Shown here piece after piece: positions 2,285 through 19,781 of a DNA stretch of 20,076 bases. The notes under the pieces were generated by a model, which worked only from the letters and a program-made list of their open reading frames with translations, was not told the origin of the DNA and did not search any database. The first letter of the stretch is position 1; each line of letters begins with the position of its first letter. The DNA comes from Prasinococcaceae sp. CCMP 1430 (taxonomy: Eukaryota > Prasinodermophyta > Palmophyllophyceae > Prasinococcales > Prasinococcaceae): contig RQSC01001371.1 in the NCBI GenBank assembly GCA_013416795.1, forward strand, positions 47,746 through 67,821, in the 5' to 3' direction. The position numbers and the translations under genes were made by a program.

Positions 2285-2775
2285 GGCGTTGTTTGTCGTC
2301 TTTCTTCCGACGACCGAGGAGGGGGACGGGCGGAGCGCGCCGTGCGCCCTCTCGCCGCGCGCGCTGTGGCGGGCGAGAGGGCGGCGCGGNGACCCGCCCG
2401 CCACGAGCTAATGACGCTGTCCTGTAATAATAAGCGCGCCCCGGCGACGCCTGTGCGAGCACCCGCGCGGGCTCGCGCGCCCCTCAGGCCTGCGCACCGA
2501 CGACGGGGCTCCGTCGCATGCGCGCATGCAGTCGCGATGATCTCATACATGTTCGTATTACGCGCCCTCCGCAAGCGCAAGGGCGTAGCAGTAGTAGTGT
2601 GGTAACGCGAGTGCGGGGGTTGCTCTGCACGCGCTGCGCTGCTGCGTGACGGCGGGCTGGAGAGGCGCGCGTGGTTGCGGTTTCGTTTTGATTTTTTGGG
2701 GAGAGCCGGTGTGTGCTTGGTAGGGTTCGTGGAAAGGGCGTCGGATCCGGGCGCGAGGACGTGCGCATGTGATTT
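2285..2775. other. Upstream region of the ZEP-like gene with an assembly N
   Basis: No gene is visible. It holds the presumed 5' region of the ZEP-like gene, an N at 2390 directly after a GC-rich stretch, and to the right of the N a somewhat less GC-rich sequence with short AT-rich patches (for example GTAATAATAAG near 2423-2433 and TTTTGATTTTTTGG near 2685-2698). Several overlapping frames are open on both strands, but none has a credible protein composition. Confidence 0.5.
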
Positions 2776-2834
2776 GATATGCGTGTTTTGGAAGGCTCCT
2801 CGCGGTGAGCTTTTCGGGCGTTTCGCATATGATT
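2776..2834 (+). repeat. Left arm of repeat unit A
   Basis: About 59 bases starting GATATGCGTGTTTTGGAAGG closely match 5238-5296, with a few substitutions. The central stretch from GGCTCCTCGCGG to TTTTCGGGCG is identical and can fold as a small hairpin (GCTC/GAGC). With the right arm at 3300-3639 it brackets repeat unit A (2776-3639, 864 bases). A 15-base piece just before it (CGCATGTGATTTGAT, 2765-2779) recurs at about 13311-13325. Confidence 0.75.
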
Positions 2835-3299
2835 GATCGCCTTTCGGCCCACACCGCGTCGGGGCCAAGTGAGTCGATTCCTACGGCCGTCCATTCGAAC
2901 ACGTCGAAGAGCGCGCTGTCGCCCGGCGCACCGCCGGCGCCCGCCATGACGGGGGATGATGCAAAAATCTGCACGGACACTGGCAGGGACTGATCTCGGA
3001 TCGGATGGGACAAACCCATAAAATGATTGATATGGCGGGCACGACGCTTATCTTTGCTGTCCGGGGCCGTCTTGTGGCCGTTGTCGCTTTACGAGTTGCA
3101 CGACTGCACGACTCTGTACCGGCACGGCGCGGTCGCCAACCAACGCTTCATGCGCACGCTCGAACGAGGCCGCTGGCTTGGCCAAGGAGTTGTCCGCAAC
3201 TTGGTAGTGAAAGCGGCGGGGCAAGCCGGACAAGAAGCAGTAGTTCATGGAGGGAGTCTGCGCGCACGTGAAGAGGTCGGGCGTTCCGCGAGTCACCAC
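2835..3299. other. Unmatched interior of repeat unit A
   Basis: No recognisable gene. The sequence is less GC-rich than its surroundings and several frames are open on both strands over 200-350 bases. One + strand reading has a plausible amino-acid mix (LYELHDCTTLYRHGAVANQR, near 3080-3140) but I recognise no family. It does not align with the interior of unit B, either directly or by complement, so the two units share only their arms. Confidence 0.4.
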
Positions 3300-3374
3300 T
3301 TGCGTCGTCACCTCCGCGGCGCCGACATCTTACGCATGCTTGATTGCCACCATGATTTTTGGAGGTTAACTGAT

Positions 3375-3429
3375 CACGAGCGCCGGCGCTAGACCGGCGC
3401 CGCCGCGCACTCTCCGCCCAGTAGCCTCA
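3375..3429. repeat. Hairpin segment whose partner copy is its plain complement
   Basis: The segment starts CACGAGCGCC and ends GTAGCCTCA. It contains a strong hairpin (GCGCCGG at about 3380-3386 with CCGGCGC at 3394-3400). All 55 bases are replaced in the other unit (5772-5826) by their Watson-Crick complement in the same left-to-right order. Flanks on both sides align at the same offset without gaps. Because complementing preserves pairing, the hairpin is kept in both copies. Confidence 0.95.
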
Positions 3430-3473
3430 TCACAGTAATGTAATCTCCAGATTTGGCCTGGACGCGACATTCT

Positions 3474-3635
3474 CTCTCCATAGCTCAGTTGGCCAGACTT
3501 GTCGGCAGACCCGTTTCGACATAGAGCGGATCCGGCAATCTTACAAAAGATTGCTCAGCTCACAGGATTGTAGTTTGATCTGAATTTCCTTAGGCCCTCG
3601 GTTCGAATTCAATTTCGAAAATCCGGGTGGGGAGA
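3474..3635 (+). tRNA. tRNA-like gene with apparent insertions in several arms, copy A
   Basis: Seen: an acceptor stem pairs 3474-3480 with 3628-3634 (7 bp, one G-U). D stem GCTC (3483-3486) pairs with GAGC (3524-3527), and T stem CTCGG (3597-3601) with CCGGG (3623-3627, one G-U). A perfect A-box-like TAGCTCAGTTGG (3481-3492) and a 10/11 B box GGTTCGAATTC (3600-3610) are present. An anticodon stem GATCC (3529-3533)/GGATT (3565-3569) can form. Removing insertions of about 28 (D loop), 24 (anticodon loop), 22 (variable loop) and 14 bases (T loop) leaves 74 nt, a normal tRNA length. The anticodon insertion holds a 7-bp hairpin (3536-3542/3547-3553). The anticodon is unresolved: this stem gives no U33, while an alternative stem CAATC/GATTG gives loop CTCACAG with CAC (Val). 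Known: tRNA genes with several ectopic introns exist in red algae, prasinophytes and nucleomorphs. Alternative: a tRNA-derived SINE. No T-run terminator follows this copy. Confidence 0.48.
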
Positions 3636-3639
3636 GTTG

Positions 3640-4108
3640 TTTAAGTAAAAAACGACGTCTTAACTCTACGTAAGACTGGTTCTGCGCTCTTAAATACGGA
3701 GTTGAAAAGCACCACCGAGCATGTCACCACCCATTCATTTTCTTCCGCTGTATGCGCCCACCACCCTTTCCCCCTTTTTCTCCCCTTTTTCTCCTTTTTT
3801 GGCCAACCCACGCACATCCAGCGCACACCAGGTGGTGAAAGGAAAGGCGCTGGTGCGCCATCGCAGTGCAGCGCGTGCGCGCGCGCGCCCCCTCATGGCT
3901 CGTGCTGCGCGCCGCCCCCCCCCCGGGTGGGCGGCGGCGCTGAACTCGGCAGCCGAGGCGAGAGCGCGCCGCGGCGGCGCGCACCCTTACAAGTCACCCT
4001 CGCACTCCAATCCCCCCTCACCCATCGCAACACACCCCCCACGTCCCGCGCAGCCAGCCAGCCAGCAAGCGACGTACGCGGAGCGAGTTCACAGATTTGT
4101 TACGCGCG
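3640..4108. other. Intergenic, no gene seen
   Basis: No gene is supported. About 3740-3810 is a pyrimidine-rich tract (runs of T and C) followed by GC-rich sequence with alternating CG. It lies between repeat unit A and the homopolymer block at 4109-4157 and downstream of the minus-strand phosphotransferase fragment, so part could be its 3' untranslated region. Confidence 0.4.
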
Positions 4109-4139
<31 letters not shown>

Positions 4140-4157
4140 GGGGGGGGGGGGGGGGGG
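4109..4157. repeat. C29-G20 homopolymer palindrome
   Basis: Twenty-nine consecutive C (4109-4137) are followed directly by twenty G (4138-4157), making a self-complementary block with no spacer. It could form a cruciform, i-motif or G-quadruplex, and is equally typical of an assembly join between two reads ending in homopolymers. Confidence 0.9.
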
Positions 4158-4214
4158 TTGCATCCGCCGCTCCTCCTCCGCTCCTCCATCCCACCCGTCC
4201 TCGGCAGGCCATCG

Positions 4215-4767
4215 TCACCGGACCTTCTTCTTCGCCTCGCCGTTCACCCGCCCGTTCGGCGCTCCCCTCCGCCCCTTCCCCTCCTTCCTCCTCCCCTTCT
4301 CCTTCCCCCCTTTGTCCTCGATGGTGAAGAACCGCACCCCCAGCGCGTCCGCAATCCTGCTGGCGGTGTTCCACGTGCGCCGCGCGTACATGGCCACCGA
4401 CAGCGCGCACATGGCCTCGTGCACGCGCGTGACCGCCACCGCCCCGTACCCCGCCGCGCCCAGCGCGGCGGGGGCGGCCGCGAACGCCGCCAGCATGAGC
4501 AGCGCCCAGTGCAGCGACGGGTACGGGATGTACCCCACGCGCGTGACCATCAGCCGGTTGAGCACGTCGCCGAAGGTCACGTGCGCCAGCACGTACAGCG
4601 CGATGAGCGAGTTGCGCGCGAGTCCCACCTCGCGCGCGGGCTCGACCGCGCCCCCGAACGCGCCCCCCATCGCGCGCCGCAGCGCCGCGCCCACCCCGCC
4701 CAGGCCGCCGCCGGACGGGGCGCGTGTGCCGCGCGCGGGCGCGCGCGTGCGGCGCCGGCGACGACGC
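4215..4767 (-). CDS. CDP-alcohol phosphotransferase, C-terminal half
   Basis: An open frame of about 183 codons ends at TGA (4217-4215) with no ATG at its head. It probably starts at a splice acceptor CAG at 4770-4768. The product has hydrophobic stretches, then FGDVLNRLMVTRVG and, near the end, a pattern MYARRTWNTASRIADALGVR followed by FFTI. This order resembles the C-terminus of eukaryotic choline/ethanolamine phosphotransferases (hydrophobic helices, F-KV-NKLVVAH-like segment, then V--QI---L-I--F-I), followed here by a Lys/Gly/Arg-rich tail. The catalytic CDP-alcohol motif is absent from this piece and no upstream exon is visible to the right. The missing half matches what is at 8968-9764 on the other strand. 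It could alternatively be a paralogue fragment. Confidence 0.6.
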
Positions 4768-4784
4768 CTGGCTGTGATCGATCG

Positions 4785-4814
4785 ACGGATCGATCGGAAA
4801 GTCGATCGATCCGT
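4785..4814. repeat. 12-bp perfect inverted repeat built on GATCGATC
   Basis: ACGGATCGATCG (4785-4796) and its reverse complement (4803-4814) are separated by a 6-base loop GAAAGT. Further GATCGATC and GATCGAGATCGAT copies flank it (4776-4784 and about 4838-4851). It lies just upstream of the phosphotransferase fragment's proposed splice acceptor. Confidence 0.85.
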
Positions 4815-5237
4815 GATGATGATGGTGATGGGTCGGTGGATCGAGATCGATACGGAGTGGTGTGCAGCTCAACCGACCGGCCGCCCAATTTGCGCGGCGC
4901 GCGGCGGGCCGCTGTTGGTGGGTGGTCTGTCAGGCCTCGGTCAGATCCGGGATCTGCCGACCGAAGTGCCGAACCGAATGAACAAAAGTCACGCCGGCCT
5001 GCCTGGCATGGATGGACGTCCGTCCGTGCTTGCGCGCGCGCGCAGATTTTTCGCCGCGCAGCGGGAGGACGGGCGGCCGGCGCGGCGCCACACGCGCGGC
5101 GGGCGCGCGCGCCGGCCGAGGAGGTTTGGGCCGAGACCTCGGCCCGCACCGACGCGATCATTTGTCGCTGCTGCGACATTTCCATTTCCTCAAACTGCGT
5201 ATCAAATCGCAGGCGCCATGTCGTGTGGATGTTTTTT
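4815..5237. other. Intergenic, no gene seen
   Basis: No gene is supported. Open frames here are alternate readings of GC-rich sequence. An 8-bp inverted repeat (GGCCGAGG/CCTCGGCC) lies near 5115-5147. A less GC-rich stretch at about 5155-5237 leads into the left arm of repeat unit B. Confidence 0.4.
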
Positions 5238-5296
5238 GATACGCGTGTTTTCGAAGGCTCCTCGCGGTGAGCTTTTCGGGCGGTTCGGAATTGATT
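5238..5296 (+). repeat. Left arm of repeat unit B
   Basis: This is the second copy of the 59-base left arm (compare 2776-2834), beginning GATACGCGTGTTTTCGAAGG. The two left arms are offset by 2462 bases and the right arms by 2397, so the interiors differ by 65 bases in length (unit B is 5238-6036, 799 bases). Confidence 0.75.
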
Positions 5297-5298
5297 GA

Positions 5299-5696
5299 AT
5301 GCTGCGGGGTCGGCGCGCGGCATCCGCGCGCGCCTTGATTTCGCGGATCCGGTAACTGGTGGGGACGTCCAGCACCTTTTCCACTCCCGCTTGGAGCGGC
5401 GGGCGGGGCGCCTCCTCCTGGGTCATTTTGCCGCTCTCCTACGCTTGCTGTCCCTTGCCTTCCATCTCCTCGATGCCTTTCGTTGCTTTGCAGACCTCGT
5501 CCATCATGTCACCGTCGTATTTCAGGTCCGCATTCAGCCGGCGTTCGTCGTACCGCCTCGCCAAGCGCGGAGAGCTTGCTCCGTGCGTTGTTGACCATCT
5601 TGTTGAGGGCGCCGATGCCACGGCTTAAGGCTTTGCGATTGGTGTGGAGCGCCTTGTCCGTCGCACGCCATGTCTTCAACTTGTTGTACACCTCCG
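5299..5696 (-). pseudogene. Degenerate coding-like sequence inside repeat unit B
   Basis: Minus-strand pieces in different frames have a natural amino-acid mix, unlike the Arg/Ala/Pro-rich shadows elsewhere. They are TEVYNKLKTWRATDKALHTN and what follows (about 5695-5560), YDERRLNADLKYDGDMMDEV ending EGKGQQA-stop (about 5555-5439), and an ATG-initiated MTQEEAPRPPLQAGVEKVLD (5426 downward). Joining them needs at least two frame changes. The charged, helix-prone composition would suit a decayed protein of the repeat element, but I recognise no family, so function is unknown. Introns instead of frameshifts are possible. Confidence 0.32.
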
Positions 5697-5771
5697 TTGC
5701 GTCGTCACCTCCGCGGCGCCAACATCTTACGCATGCTTGATTGCCACCATGATTTTTGGAGGTTAACTGAC

Positions 5772-5826
5772 GTGCTCGCGGCCGCGATCTGGCCGCGGCG
5801 GCGCGTGAGAGGCGGGTCATCGGAGT
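5772..5826. repeat. Hairpin segment, complemented counterpart of 3375-3429
   Basis: The segment starts GTGCTCGCGG and ends CATCGGAGT. Read left to right, each base is the complement of the base 2397 positions to the left. The hairpin here is CGCGGCC (5777-5783) with GGCCGCG (5791-5797), at the same position and spacing as the GCGCCGG/CCGGCGC hairpin in copy A. Confidence 0.95.
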
Positions 5827-5870
5827 TCACAGTAATGTAATCTCCAGATTTGGCCTGGACGCGACATTCT

Positions 5871-6032
5871 CTCTCCATAGCTCAGTTGGCCAGACTTGTC
5901 GGCAGACCCGTTTCGACATAGAGCGGATCCGGCAATCTTACAAAAGATTGCTCAGCTCACAGGATTGTAGTTTGATCTGAATTTCCTTAGGCCCTCGGTT
6001 CGAATTCAATTTCGAAAATCCGGGTGGGGAGA
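5871..6032 (+). tRNA. tRNA-like gene with apparent insertions in several arms, copy B
   Basis: Every base of the 162-base structure is identical to 3474-3635, so all stems, A and B boxes and insertions described there apply. Unlike copy A, it is followed by a run of six T (6044-6049), 12 bases after the last paired region, which would serve as an RNA polymerase III terminator. Copy B is therefore the better candidate for an expressed gene. A tRNA-derived SINE or a decayed tRNA is the alternative. Confidence 0.5.
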
Positions 6033-6043
6033 GTTGAAATTCA

Positions 6044-6049
6044 TTTTTT
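6044..6049 (+). terminator. Candidate Pol III T6 terminator of tRNA-like copy B
   Basis: Six consecutive T lie 12 bases beyond the acceptor stem of copy B. RNA polymerase III stops at runs of four or more T. The position suits the gene, but short T runs are also common in this less GC-rich stretch. Confidence 0.4.
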
Positions 6050-6394
6050 GCTGCAGAATTGAGATGCATTCTGACCAAGACGCGAGAATTTACGTAATAG
6101 GTGCACCAGACTTGATCGGTATTTTACGGGATTTGAATTAAGTGCGTTCCAGAGAATGAGTCGAACCCACGCCCGGCTCTCCCGTGGGCAGGTCGCGCCC
6201 TTCTGTGCGCACCCCGCCGGAGTTAGGGTGCAGGATCTCGATGGCAGGGAGCACGGGTTTGCGGCAGGCGACGAACCCTCTTGCGGCGGGAACAGAAAAA
6301 TATACCCTTACTCGCGCCCGCCTGGCCGCACCCTCACTCGGCCGACCCCGCCGCCTCCCCCCCGGCCCAGCCCACACACACACAGCAGCCCGCT
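6050..6394. other. Gap between repeat unit B and the cytidylyltransferase gene
   Basis: No gene is supported. About 6050-6140 is AT-richer than the rest of the window. A B-box-like GGTTCGACTC occurs on the minus strand at about 6149-6158, but no matching A box or cloverleaf was found. The right part, with a (CA)n run near 6373-6382, is presumably the 3' untranslated region of the minus-strand gene that ends at 6395. Confidence 0.45.
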
Positions 6395-13948: not shown

Positions 13949-16900
13949 GACGACGCCCCGTCCCCCGCCCCGTCGTCGTCCCCTCAAAGAAGAGGCCTCG
14001 GGGGCCTCAGCGCCGCGTCGGCCGAGGCGGCCCGCCGCCGCCGCCTCAAGACCTCCCTGCGCAACACCTTCACCAAGGGCGCCAAGAAGGCGGCCGCGCA
14101 CTACGACCCGTCGCAGCTCGCCGAGTCGAAGCGCCTGTGGCAGTCGCAGGCGCGCGCGAGGCGCGCGCACGAGCTGCGCTCGGGCGCGCTGCGCCCGCAC
14201 GCGCTGCTGGCGGGCTTCGCCGTGGTGGGCGTGCCGCCGCAGGCGGACGNAGCCCCAACGGGCGATTCGCGGAGGGCGCCGCAGCGATCGACGGAAAGGT
14301 GCTGGAGAGGGTCGAGGCCATCGGCAAGAACCTGCTCTACTTCTTCGGGGGCGATGGCCGCGGCGGGCGACGGCAAGCGGCAGGCCAAGGTGCGCTTTGT
14401 TTTCCCGCGCGCGCTCCCCGGGCGCTCCCTCCCCAGGCACTCGCTGACGCTCGCGCACCCACACACACACAAAAAAATTCCATCAAGAGCTACTACTACC
14501 GCGGCCAAACCGGCGGCCACGCGGTCGACCCCGAGGTGCTCCTGTGGTGGCCGCCCCCCTGTCCCGACCAATCATCCTCCCAAACAAGCAGCACCATCGC
14601 TACCCAGCTCTCCTCCCAGCTGCCCTCCTTCTGCTTCCCGCACGGCGTGCACGCGCGGCTCGTCGAGCGCACGCCCTCGCGCTCCGAGGTGGACCGCGTG
14701 CGCTTCGGCGCGGGCGGCGCGGGCGCGGCGGCGGCGTGGGCGCGCGATCGCTTCGTCTTCACGCTCAAGGTGGGCGACGGCGCCAACAACGAGCTGCTGT
14801 ACGGCTGCGTGGTGCTGGCCGAGGAGCTCGTGGGGCGCGCGCCGGCCGTGGCGCGGCAGGCGGCGCGCGCGGCCGCGGCCTCGGAGGACGGGCGGGCGAG
14901 CAGGTGCGCGCGCATGAGACTGGCCGCGCCCATGATGATGGTGGTGATGATGCGCGAAGGAATCTCCCCTCACCCCAGCGCTGACGCCCCCCCCCCCCGC
15001 ATCCTCTGCTTCCCACCCACCCACCCACGCAAAACAACGTCCAGCAGCAGCACCACCGCCGCCGCCTCGCTCCCTCGAGCAGGAGAACAACAACAACACC
15101 TACATCACCACCAACAAAAAACAAAGACCTACACAACAACAACAACACGCACCGAGCTTGTCGAAGGCCTCACCGCCGCCGCGCCGCGCGCGTACGTGGC
15201 GCTGTCCTACCTGCCGTGCTTCGAGTTCCACTTCGAGCTCATCGCGCGCGTGCTGGAGGCCGAGCACCTCGACCGCGTGACGCTCGCCGCCGAGGAGCTC
15301 GCGGCCGAGCTCGAGGCGGCCGCCTTGGGCGAGCAGCCCGCCTTGGGCGAGGAGCCCGCGGCGACCACGCGGCAGCACCCCGCGCCCTCCTTGTCGACCC
15401 CCGCCCCGTCGTCGGTCCAGGCGCCGGCGGCCGGCGGCGCCGGGCGCGCGTCCGACGAGGACGGGGCGCTCTCTCGCCAGGAGCGACGACGGCGACGCGG
15501 AGAGCGCCTCGTCGAGCCGCCGGCGTGGTGGCAGGAGGAGGGGAAGGGAAGGGCTCGTCGGCGGGTCGAGGCAGCAGCGGCAGCAGAAGAAGACGACGAC
15601 GACGACGAAGGGACCTCGGCAGGGGAGGGGGCTTGTTCGCCCCCGTCGAGCCCCCGCACGCCGCCGCCGCCGCCGGCATCGCAGCAGCAGCAGCAGCAGG
15701 AGCGGGAGGAAACGGATGCGGATGCGGAGACTGAGTCACCACCGCGCGCCCACCCCCACCCCCGTACCGACCAACACCACCCCAACTCAACCCCCTCGCC
15801 CTCCTCCCCACCAAAAAAGAAGCCCAACAAACGCTTCCCCTCCCCCTCCCCCCCAAACAACAACGTGCTCTCCCTGCTCTCCGACGCGTGCAGGCAGGCG
15901 GCGCCCGCGCCGGGCGAGCACGTCGCGCTGCGCTGCGGCGACGGCCCGCCGATCGGATCATGACGCATGCGACAGCGAAGGCAGCAGTACGAAAGAGGAG
16001 CGGGCTGCGCGCTGGCGGAGCGCACCATGGAGCGCGCGCGCGCCGCGTCGGCCGAGGCGGAGAACGGCGTCGCGGGCGAGCAGCACCAGCAGCAGCAGCA
16101 AGAGCAGCAGCAGCATCGCTCGTCCTCCCTCGAAGAAGAGGAAGAAGAAGACGAAGACGAAGATGGAGGAGCACAAAAACACCAACACCAACACCACCAA
16201 CCCTCCCCCCCCACACACAAAAAAAACATCTCAGCAGAGTCGTCCTCCCCCCCCCAAAAACTCCTCCATCGCGCCCTGCCCGGCGAGCACGCGCTCGAGG
16301 CGGCCGCGTGGGGCGCGAGCGCGCTGTGCGCGTGCCTGCCGCTCGACGGCGTGCTGAGCGTGCTGTGCGCGGCGCTGCTCGAGGCGCAGGTGCTCTTCGT
16401 GTGCCCCGCGCTGGGCACGCTCACCGCGTGCGTCATGGCGGTGCCCGCGCTCGTGCGCCCCCTCGAGTGGCAGTCGGTGCTGCTGCCCGTGCTGCCCGCC
16501 GCCATGGTGTCCTTCCTGGAGGCGCCCGTGCCCTTCGTGGTGGGCGTGCAGTACAAGACCGACGCGGTGCGCGAGGCGTCGCGCGAGTGCGTGCGCGTCA
16601 ACTGCTACAAGAGCAAGGTCTTCATGGGCGGCCTCTCGCACATCCGGCTGCCCTGCCAGGCGCAGCTGGCGGAGACGCTCGCGCCCTTCCACGCCGCGCT
16701 GGCGGAGGGCGCGGGCGCGGGCGCGGGCGGCCGGCTGGGCGTGACCGCGGCGCGCGCGGAGGCCGCGCTCGCCGTGGTGGCCAAGGTCAACCGGTACGTC
16801 GAGGCCGTGCTGTGCGGCGACCTCCACCAGCACGCCATCACCGACGTGTCGCAGGGCGAGAAGGTGTCGCTGCTGCTCAAGGACTCGTTCTGCGACAGCT

Positions 16901-17001: not shown

Positions 17002-17227
17002 GCGACCGCGCCGGCAGGTGGGCGCGCCCCTCCCGCCGTGCGCCTGATAATGAGTGGATTGCGAACGCAGCGGCAGACGCGGCTGCGCGGCGCGGCGCCG
17101 CGCGCGGAGGCGTCGCCAGAGAGGAGGCGCCGCGCGCACCTTCTTCGCGGCCCCTCTTCCCTCCCACGCGCTCCGCCCACACACGCGTGTACACACGCAC
17201 ACACATACCTTTCTTACTGTTCTTCCT
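17002..17227. other. Gap between convergent genes
   Basis: The DENN gene (+) and the TPR gene (-) end 226 bases apart. A CA/TG-alternating stretch (about 17175-17206) and no clear poly-A signal were seen. Confidence 0.5.
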
Positions 17228-19697
17228 CTACTCTGCGCCACCGCACGCCCGCGCCGCCCGCAGCGCCTGCTCGGTGGCGCCGATTTTGCCGAGCGTCTCG
17301 GCCACATCCGGGTGGTCGTCGCCCAGCGCGGCGCGCTGGATGCGCAGCGCCTCCTCGAGCGGCTCGAGCGCCTCGGCGTGGCGACCCTGGATGAAGTACA
17401 CCATGCCCATGTCGCCGAGCGTCTCCGCCACATCCGGGTGGACGTCGCCAAGCTTGGCGCGCTGGATGCGCAGCGCCTCCTCGTACGCCTCGAGCGCCTC
17501 GGCGTAGCGGCCCTGGCTGTCGTACACACTGCCAATGTTGCCGAGCGTCGTCGCCACATCCAGGTGGTCGTCGCCAAGCTTGGCGCGCCTGATGCGCAGC
17601 GCCTCCTCGTACGCCTCGAGCGCCTTGGCGTAGCGTTCCTGCTTGAAGTACACCATGCCCTTGTGGTTGAGCGTCTTCGCCACATCCGGGTGATCGTCGC
17701 CCAGCTTGGCGCGCCTGATGCGCAGCGCCTCCTCGTGCGCCTCGAGCGCCTCGGCGTGGCGACCCTGGCATTGGTACACGCTGCCCATGTTGTCGAGCGT
17801 CGTCGCCACATCCGGGTGGTCGTCGCCCAGCTTGGCGCGCTGGATGCGCAGCGCCTCCTCGTGCGCCTCGAGCGCCTCGGCGTGGCGTCCCTGGCTGTTG
17901 TACACCACGCCCATGTTGTCGCGTGTCCGCGCCACATCCGGGTGGTCGTCGCCCAGCGCGGTGCGCTGGATGCGCAGCGCCTCTTCGAGCGCCTCGAGCG
18001 CCTCGGCGTAGCGACCCTGGTGGCTGCCGTACACGTTGCCCATGAGGCCGAGCGTCTCCGCCACATCCGGGTGGTCGTCGCCCAGCTTGGCGCGCCTGAT
18101 GCGCAGCGCCTCCTCGAGCGGCTCGAGCGCCTCGGCGTGGCGTCCCTGGCATTGGTACGCGGCGCCAACGTAGGTGAGCGTCATCGCCACATCCGGGTGG
18201 TCGTCGCCCAGCTTGGCGCGCCTGATGCGCAGCGCCTCCTCGTACGTCTCGAGCGCCTCGGCGTGGCGACCCTGGCATTGGTACGTGACGCCAACAGAGG
18301 TGAGCGTCGTCGCCTCATCCAGGTGGTCATCGCCCAGCTTGGCGCGCTGGATGCGCAGTGCTTCCTCGTACGTCTCGAGCGCCTCGGCGTGGCGACCCTG
18401 GCATTGGTACGCGCTGCCCATGTCGCCGAGCGTCGTCGCCACATCCAGGTGGTCGTCGCCAAGCTTGGCGCGCCTGATGCGCAGCGCCTCCTCGTACGCC
18501 TCGAGCGCCTTGGCGTACCGATCCTGCATGAAGTACACCATGCCCTTGTGGTTGAGCGTCCGCGCCACATCCGGGTGGTCGTTGCCCAGCTTGGCGCGCC
18601 TGATGCGCAGCGCCTCCTCGAGCGGCTCAAGCGCCTCGGCGTGGCGACCCTGGCATTGGTACGCGCTGCCAATGTTGCCGAGCGTCGTCGCCACATCCAG
18701 GTGGTCATCGCCCAGCTTGACGCGCCTGATGCGCAGCGCCTCCTCGTGCGCCTCGAGCGCCTCGGCGTGGCGTCCCTGGCTTTGGTACACGTTGCCCTTG
18801 TAGTTGAGCGTCGTCGCCACATCCGGGTGGTCGTCGCCCAGCTTGGCGCGCACTACGGGCAGCGCCTCTTCGAGCGCCTCGAGCGCCTCGGCGTAGCGGC
18901 CCTGGTTGGTATACACGTGGCCCATCATGGCGCGCGTCCGCGCCACATCCGGGTGGTCGTCGCCCAGCTTGGCGCGCCTGATGCGCAGCGCCTCCTCGTA
19001 CGCCTCGAGCGCCTCGGCGTAGCGGCCCTGGCTGCCGTACACGTTGCCCATGTCGTTGCGCGTCTTCGCCACATCCGGGTGGTCGTCGCCCAGCTTGGCG
19101 CGCCTGATGCGCAGCGCCTCCTCGTACGTCTCGAGCGCCTCAGCGTAGCGTCCCTGGTTGAAGTACACAATGCCCATGAGGCCGAGCGTCGCCGCGACAT
19201 CCGGGTGGTCGTCGCCAAGCTTGGCGCGCTCGATGCGCAGTGCTTCCTCGTACGTCTCGAGCGCCTTGGCGTAGCGTTCCTGCTTGAAGTACACCATGCC
19301 CTTGTGGTTGAGCGTCTCCGCCACATCCGGGTGGTCGTCGCCCAGCTTGGCGCGCCTGATGCGCAGCGCCTCCTCGTGCGCCTCCAGCGCCTCGGCGTGG
19401 CGACCCTGGCATTGGTACGAGCGTCGTCGCCACATCCAGGTGGTCATCGCCCAGCTTGACGCGCCTGATGCGCAGCGCCTCCTCGTGCGCCTCCAGCGCC
19501 TCGGCGTGGCGACCCTGGCATTGGTACGCGGCGCCAACGCAGGTGAGCATCATCGCCACATTCGGGTGGTCGTTGCCCAGCTTGGCGCGCATGAGGCGCA
19601 GCGCCTCCTTGTACGCCTCGAGCGCCTCAGCGTAACGCCTCTGGCTAAGATGCTCGTCGCCCGTGCGCACCGCCGCCAGCGCCGCCGCGCCGCTCAT
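17228..19697 (-). CDS. Tandem TPR (kinesin-light-chain-like) repeat protein, frameshifted
   Basis: From ATG at 19697 (MSGAAALAAVRTGDEHLSQR) to TAG at 17230-17228. The protein is almost entirely about nineteen 42-residue units of the form EALEAYEEALRIRRAKLGDD-HPDVATTLGNIGSVYxxQGRYA. These are the TPR_12/kinesin-light-chain type repeats, with the usual small residues and the ALG-DHP linker. Such solenoids bind protein partners; no catalytic domain is present, so the function is unknown. In the second unit a 17-base piece is missing at 19418/19419, which moves the frame: upstream and downstream repeats are intact but in different frames. Either the gene is broken (a usable start downstream would be needed) or this is an assembly slip between near-identical units. 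One unit (about 18000-18040) has one extra codon (SHQGRYA). The last unit runs into a short Ala-rich tail. Confidence 0.82.
17270..19650 (-). repeat. Array of ~19 units of 126 bases
   Basis: The DNA repeats with a period of 126 bases (42 codons). The linker words (YQCQGRHA, YFKQERYA, YGSQGRYA, YDSQGRYA) recur in non-adjacent units, so units appear shuffled by duplication or gene conversion. Because the period is a multiple of three and stops are rare, the opposite strand and other frames also stay open for hundreds of codons. Confidence 0.9.
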
Positions 19698-19781
19698 CTC
19701 GCGCCCCGCCCCTCCGAGTCCACGCGGGCGGCGCGCACAGAGTGCCACCGCCTTCCTCGCCACTCTCGCTCGCTCGCTGCA

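Follow-up and report, generated by a model that had tools for sequence, protein, structure and literature searches.

Sequence blocks complemented in place at the ends of repeat copies in an algal genome record: a probable assembly or finishing artefact

In the window, i.e., the whole analysed stretch of 20,076 nucleotides, which corresponds to positions 47746-67821 of contig C49 in a genome sequence of 24.5 Mb and 145 contigs, part of one repeat copy is the base-by-base complement of the other copy with the order of bases kept. This raises the question of whether this is a property of the organism or of its record. The genome is that of an alga, since genes matching the chlorophyll-binding family are present in it. 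Among the best 120 of 2782 matches, the nearest named protein belongs to Prasinoderma singulare (77%, covering 67% of one protein), by which the alga is placed only in the vicinity of this species. The published assembly of Prasinoderma coloniale, as described in the accessible part of its source, differs from the present one.

The duplicated stretch of the window

The duplicated stretch (3300-3695 and 5697-6092, Table 1) consists of 74 bases, one of which differs, a single mismatch, 55 complemented bases, 210 identical bases and 56 complemented bases. No further adjoining likeness was found beyond these limits at offset 2397. A weaker 87-base repeat (85%) is located some 400 bases upstream of each copy.

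The first block was described in an earlier note, and rechecking by script led to the same result: all 55 bases of 3375-3429 are Watson-Crick complements of 5772-5826 in the same order. The ungapped alignment of 3300-3639 with 5697-6036 at offset 2397 was borne out, as were the only two differences outside this block, 3324/5721 (G/A) and 3374/5771 (T/C). Ordinary inversion, which had already been excluded, is ruled out, since the reverse complement of block 1 matches its partner at 21 of 55 positions only. The claim of a single block turned out to be wrong. Comparison of the window with its own unreversed complement, combined with alignment at offset 2397, revealed a second block (3640-3695 against 6037-6092), complemented in place at 56 of 56 positions. 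Block 1 is G+C-rich and contains an inverted repeat; block 2 is A+T-rich. Hairpin pairing is kept inside block 1, as had been pointed out; it follows necessarily when both arms are complemented and is uninformative as to function. The genome sequence of contig C49 carries identical letters at both window blocks, possibly coming from the same file and so not being independent.

Table 1. Features of the duplicated stretch (positions in the window)
Feature	Position	Strand	Remarks
Copy A, left part	3300..3373	+	As 5697-5770 save at 3324; plain repeat, uncomplemented
Block 1, copy A	3375..3429	+	Complement of 5772-5826 (55/55); preceded by mismatch 3374/5771; probably the altered version
Core, copy A	3430..3639	+	Identical to 5827-6036 (210/210); holds the tRNA-Tyr-like gene
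tRNA-Tyr(GUA)-like sequence with four insertions	3474..3636	+	ARAGORN on joined forms; acceptor ends set by eye
Block 2, copy A	3640..3695	+	Complement of 6037-6092 (56/56); last base may be chance
Copy B, left part	5697..5770	+	Counterpart of 3300..3373
Block 1, copy B	5772..5826	+	Probably the true version, judging from the presumed direction of change
Core, copy B	5827..6036	+	Identical to 3430-3639
Block 2, copy B	6037..6092	+	T6 at 6044-6049; probably the true version, with the same presumed direction

The core contains a tRNA-Tyr-like gene, the second copy of which (5871-6033, +2397) has the same insertions. These are located in the D-loop (3493-3521, 29 nt), before the anticodon stem (3531-3564, 34 nt), after the anticodon (3574-3586, 12 or 13 nt) and in the T-loop (3609-3622, 14 nt). 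Among 18 joined forms, ARAGORN recognized tRNA-Tyr (gta) in 12, including the form obtained by plain removal, and tRNA-??? in six. It recognized no tRNA in the unspliced sequence and gave nothing useful on the raw window; the Rfam scan of 2600-6200 gave one match, far below its cut-off. One joined form, differing slightly from that of plain removal, gave no match in a genome search, a result that carries no weight. This sequence could possibly represent a highly interrupted nuclear tRNA gene. Its upstream edge is included in an exact 48-base match between 3431-3478 of the window and C55:40590-40637, where the sequence is otherwise unrelated.

Occurrence of the blocks in the genome record

A block can be recognized only if the segment has a second copy. 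The sample comprised about 148,000 readable bases (<1% of the genome): contig C49, parts of C55 and C1, and loci from C138, C76, C94, C59, C100, C72, C56, C82, C84, C79, C3, C58 and C68, several of them picked as likely repeats. In this sample, 10 exact complement blocks were found on contigs C49, C82 and C94, seven of 55 bases, two of 56 and one of 66. All 10 are 100% complementary and form five pairs, each bracketing a core common to both copies. The cores comprise 210 bases (identical), 629 (with some differences), 538 (identical) and about 1037 (with one difference), and the C94 core is present twice in tandem. An anomaly of fixed form therefore occurs at several unrelated places (five pairs, three contigs).

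Six blocks (55, 56, 55, 56, 55 and 55 bases) belong to C49. Apart from the two in the window, four lie between tandem gene copies at offset 5016 (starts 15049, 15733, 15969 and 16562), and the block starting at 15049 also pairs with a third, partial gene copy at 14125. A blastn search of C49 against its own unreversed complement (E<=1e-3) gave only seven pairs, all of 100% and 55-56 bases, with no decayed block. Perfect in-place-complement matches of at least 30 nt were represented by 14 rows, i.e., seven pairs seen from both sides. Two blocks (66 and 55 bases) relate C82, near 667-668 kb, to C84. Two more of 55 bases relate the C94 histone cluster to C59, one of them being found against the second C94 copy as well. 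As recorded, the C94/C59 relation is plain reversal (two rows, both 55/55); since these copies are inverted, this is what a complement that is in place after alignment should give. A sixth, less exact pair is present in the H2A-like gene of C94 (named by eye within Histone family hits), which is complementary at 44 and 43 of 55 positions to a diverged C72 paralogue.

A complement run adjoins only 10 of the 87 exact matches of at least 40 nt, and no complement blocks were found in polyubiquitin, in the TPR array or in a 1.46 kb duplication of 99.5% identity. The array occupies 17150-19700 of the window (minus strand), consists of 126-base units with exact repeats and was named kinesin-light-chain-like by eye.

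A truncated third copy of an EF-hand-like gene (C49:12720-14183) is 99.5% like 18660-20123 and ends 4 bases after the 55-mer which is complemented at 15049-15103; local gene order may be misassembled here. The C94 histone cluster near 75-77 kb, in which H2B pieces stand in tandem at a spacing of about 305 bases and a poly-G run is also present, is probably misassembled.

The exclusion of chance, asserted in the earlier note, was upheld by controls. When C49 letters were shuffled within 50-base windows, 20 shuffles produced no perfect in-place-complement match of at least 30 nt, and chance in G+C-rich sequence is thereby ruled out. No in-place-complement match was obtained for E. coli K-12 250-300 kb, a stretch of 50 kb carrying three IS1 copies. 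Two window genes located outside the repeats were compared with ENA proteins, and both are intact and free of blocks: ethanolamine-phosphate cytidylyltransferase (455 of 458 residues identical) and a DIS3L2-like exonuclease (100% over 661 aa). Reverse transcriptase, considered as a source of many repeat copies, was represented by one weak match below the cut-off, and searches of phage and viral collections yielded nothing useful.

Altered and unaltered copies

Conserved genes are destroyed in one of the copies, which is implausible biologically. The four coding blocks of C49 (15048-16617) correspond to 18 whole residues each and were compared with three homologues (P0001, P0002 and P0003; 92%, 90% and 62% identical). 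P0001 matches the unaltered copy (20065-21632) at 18, 18, 16 and 18 of 18 residues across the four blocks, and P0003 at 14, 5, 10 and 12, the value for block 2 being 5 of 18 for either copy and favouring neither. P0002, which begins inside block 2, agrees with the unaltered copy at 17 of 18 residues in block 3 and at all 18 in block 4. Block residues of the altered copy (15049-16616) match P0001-P0003 at 4-7 of 18 at most, anywhere.

Outside the blocks, where the two copies differ, P0001 has the residue of the altered copy at 15 of 19 sites in the segment from block 2 to block 3 and at 26 of 33 sites beyond block 4. Residues of the other copy are shared at 25 of 26 differing sites before block 1 and at four of four in the first core. 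Judged by these residues, P0001 is a mixed relative, but it shows that a relative of the C-terminal part of the altered copy exists elsewhere without complemented blocks. All four coding blocks keep an open frame, the chance of which is about 0.04. This weighs slightly against an artefact and is not regarded as a sign of function.

In the H2B of C94, the sequence ...LPGELAK is followed by unrelated residues, the change falling exactly at the block boundary. The best 60 of its 173 PDB alignments all end at residue 83 of 102, where the block starts, and the best 60 of 178 for C59 H2B reach residue 115 or 116 of 116. In the presumed first exon of the light-harvesting gene, block 1 of C82 introduces a stop, and the C84 counterpart is open. 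Both versions of the second C82 block end in a stop, and neither is preferable as the true one.

A Pol III terminator is expected shortly after a tRNA gene. In copy B of the window, the T-run at 6044-6049 (T6) follows the tRNA-like gene at a distance of ten bases and is plausible as such a terminator; the corresponding bases of copy A are A6 (3647-3652). Copy A (3300-3695) is probably the altered copy, because of this T-run in copy B and by analogy with C49 15048-16617.

Origin of the blocks

In all likelihood, the blocks are a computational artefact introduced into the genome record during assembly or finishing, a complement without reversal at the ends of repeat pieces. The pattern is truly present in the record, on a broader scale than first described, but very probably does not belong to the organism itself. 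Two readings had been left side by side, a record "altered or mishandled" and "something undescribed". The former is supported, because the recurring blocks are found on three contigs, have near-constant length, are paired around cores and destroy conserved protein, and because the two window genes are intact; the latter gained no support.

A piece common to two loci would have been written into a further locus during assembly or finishing, and about 55 bases at each end of this piece would have been complemented but left unreversed. The cause could be a reverse complement routine in which the reversal was lost, the fault acting on overlaps of about 55 bases. Such an overlap fault is suggested by the near-constant block length and by the place of the blocks at both ends of repeat pieces. 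The loss of reversal in a reverse complement is a well-known kind of programming bug, and a bug of this type in sequence code gives the same result, a base-by-base complement with the order kept. In the accessible parts of the sources, no paper or code was found which ties such a bug to the present assembly, and no description of a complement-without-reversal assembly bug was met among the best 10 of the many papers listed.

De Bruijn assembly, for which k = 55 is a common setting, shares with the present case repeat pieces bounded by fixed-length overlaps. Nine of the 10 exact blocks have 55 or 56 bases, and four C49 block edges directly adjoin a mismatch between copies. The present case differs in having one block of 66 bases and many exact repeats of more than 55 bases that are untouched. 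A strict rule, by which the last 55-mer of each exact repeat would be complemented, fails: the 66-base block of C82 lies 58 bases into an exact run, with 58 exact bases as its left neighbour; no blocks are attached to inner mismatches of the C49 core 15104-15732; and 77 of the 87 exact matches have no complement run. The "complement repeats" reported by REPuter in plastid genome papers represent the same formal relation of two stretches. Compared with these, as presented in the accessible parts of the papers, the blocks described here are 55-66 bases long, perfect, paired around a core and gene-destroying; in those parts, the best 8-10 of the many papers listed contain no description of the present pattern.

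Alternatively, the letters could have been changed after assembly, by later conversion or processing, or on purpose as a mark or test; the change would then be in the public record or in one copy only. Such an origin is consistent with the same blocks being shared by the window and the genome sequence, and the regular length and exactness would fit a scripted alteration. However, line-wise or random corruption would not know where repeat cores lie, and the blocks are paired around these cores on three contigs; the two window genes outside the repeats are intact. A later change is thus considered rather unlikely. Alteration of the window only is ruled out by the agreement of the genome sequence and by further blocks outside the window, and corruption everywhere is ruled out by the two intact genes. 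That the two middles are unrelated natural cassettes, an ordinary inversion or a G+C-rich chance likeness could be suggested by the composition and inverted repeat of block 1 and by gapped BLAST, which still aligns the two window copies at 91%. This possibility is negligible in view of the full in-place complementarity of both window blocks against the poor match given by inversion, the A+T-rich composition of block 2, and the presence of the relation at ten places and in none of the 20 shuffles.

A real biological process could be proposed by which duplicated segments have their ends rewritten as a parallel complement, since the pattern is systematic and is found only in duplicated segments (where alone it would be visible), and since the four C49 coding blocks stay in open frame. 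Nevertheless, no polymerase or recombinase is known to copy DNA in parallel orientation; no C49 block has decayed although the surrounding paralogues differ; conserved protein sequence, H2B included, is destroyed in the altered copies; and the E. coli control region, which has repeats, contains none. Such a process is highly improbable. Its fullest form, in which the alga would rewrite about 55 bases at both ends of recent duplications as a parallel complement, in coding as well as non-coding sequence and without change of base composition or local self-pairing, is still harder to credit. If true as biology, it would overturn how DNA copying is understood.

As an assembly or finishing artefact, the blocks are of importance to data quality. 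In duplicated genes, those of histones and light-harvesting proteins included, each block would stand for about 18 false residues, and gene prediction, family trees and the search for variable cassettes can be misled by them. Such a signature can easily be screened for by comparing an assembly with its own unreversed complement and selecting perfect matches of 50-70 bases.

In the window, positions 4109-4157 comprise 29 C followed directly by 20 G, a perfect palindrome at the centre, which may be another assembly fault. Of the single N bases at 2390, 8126, 9903 and 14250, which look like collapsed gaps, two follow immediately on simple GT or GC repeats.
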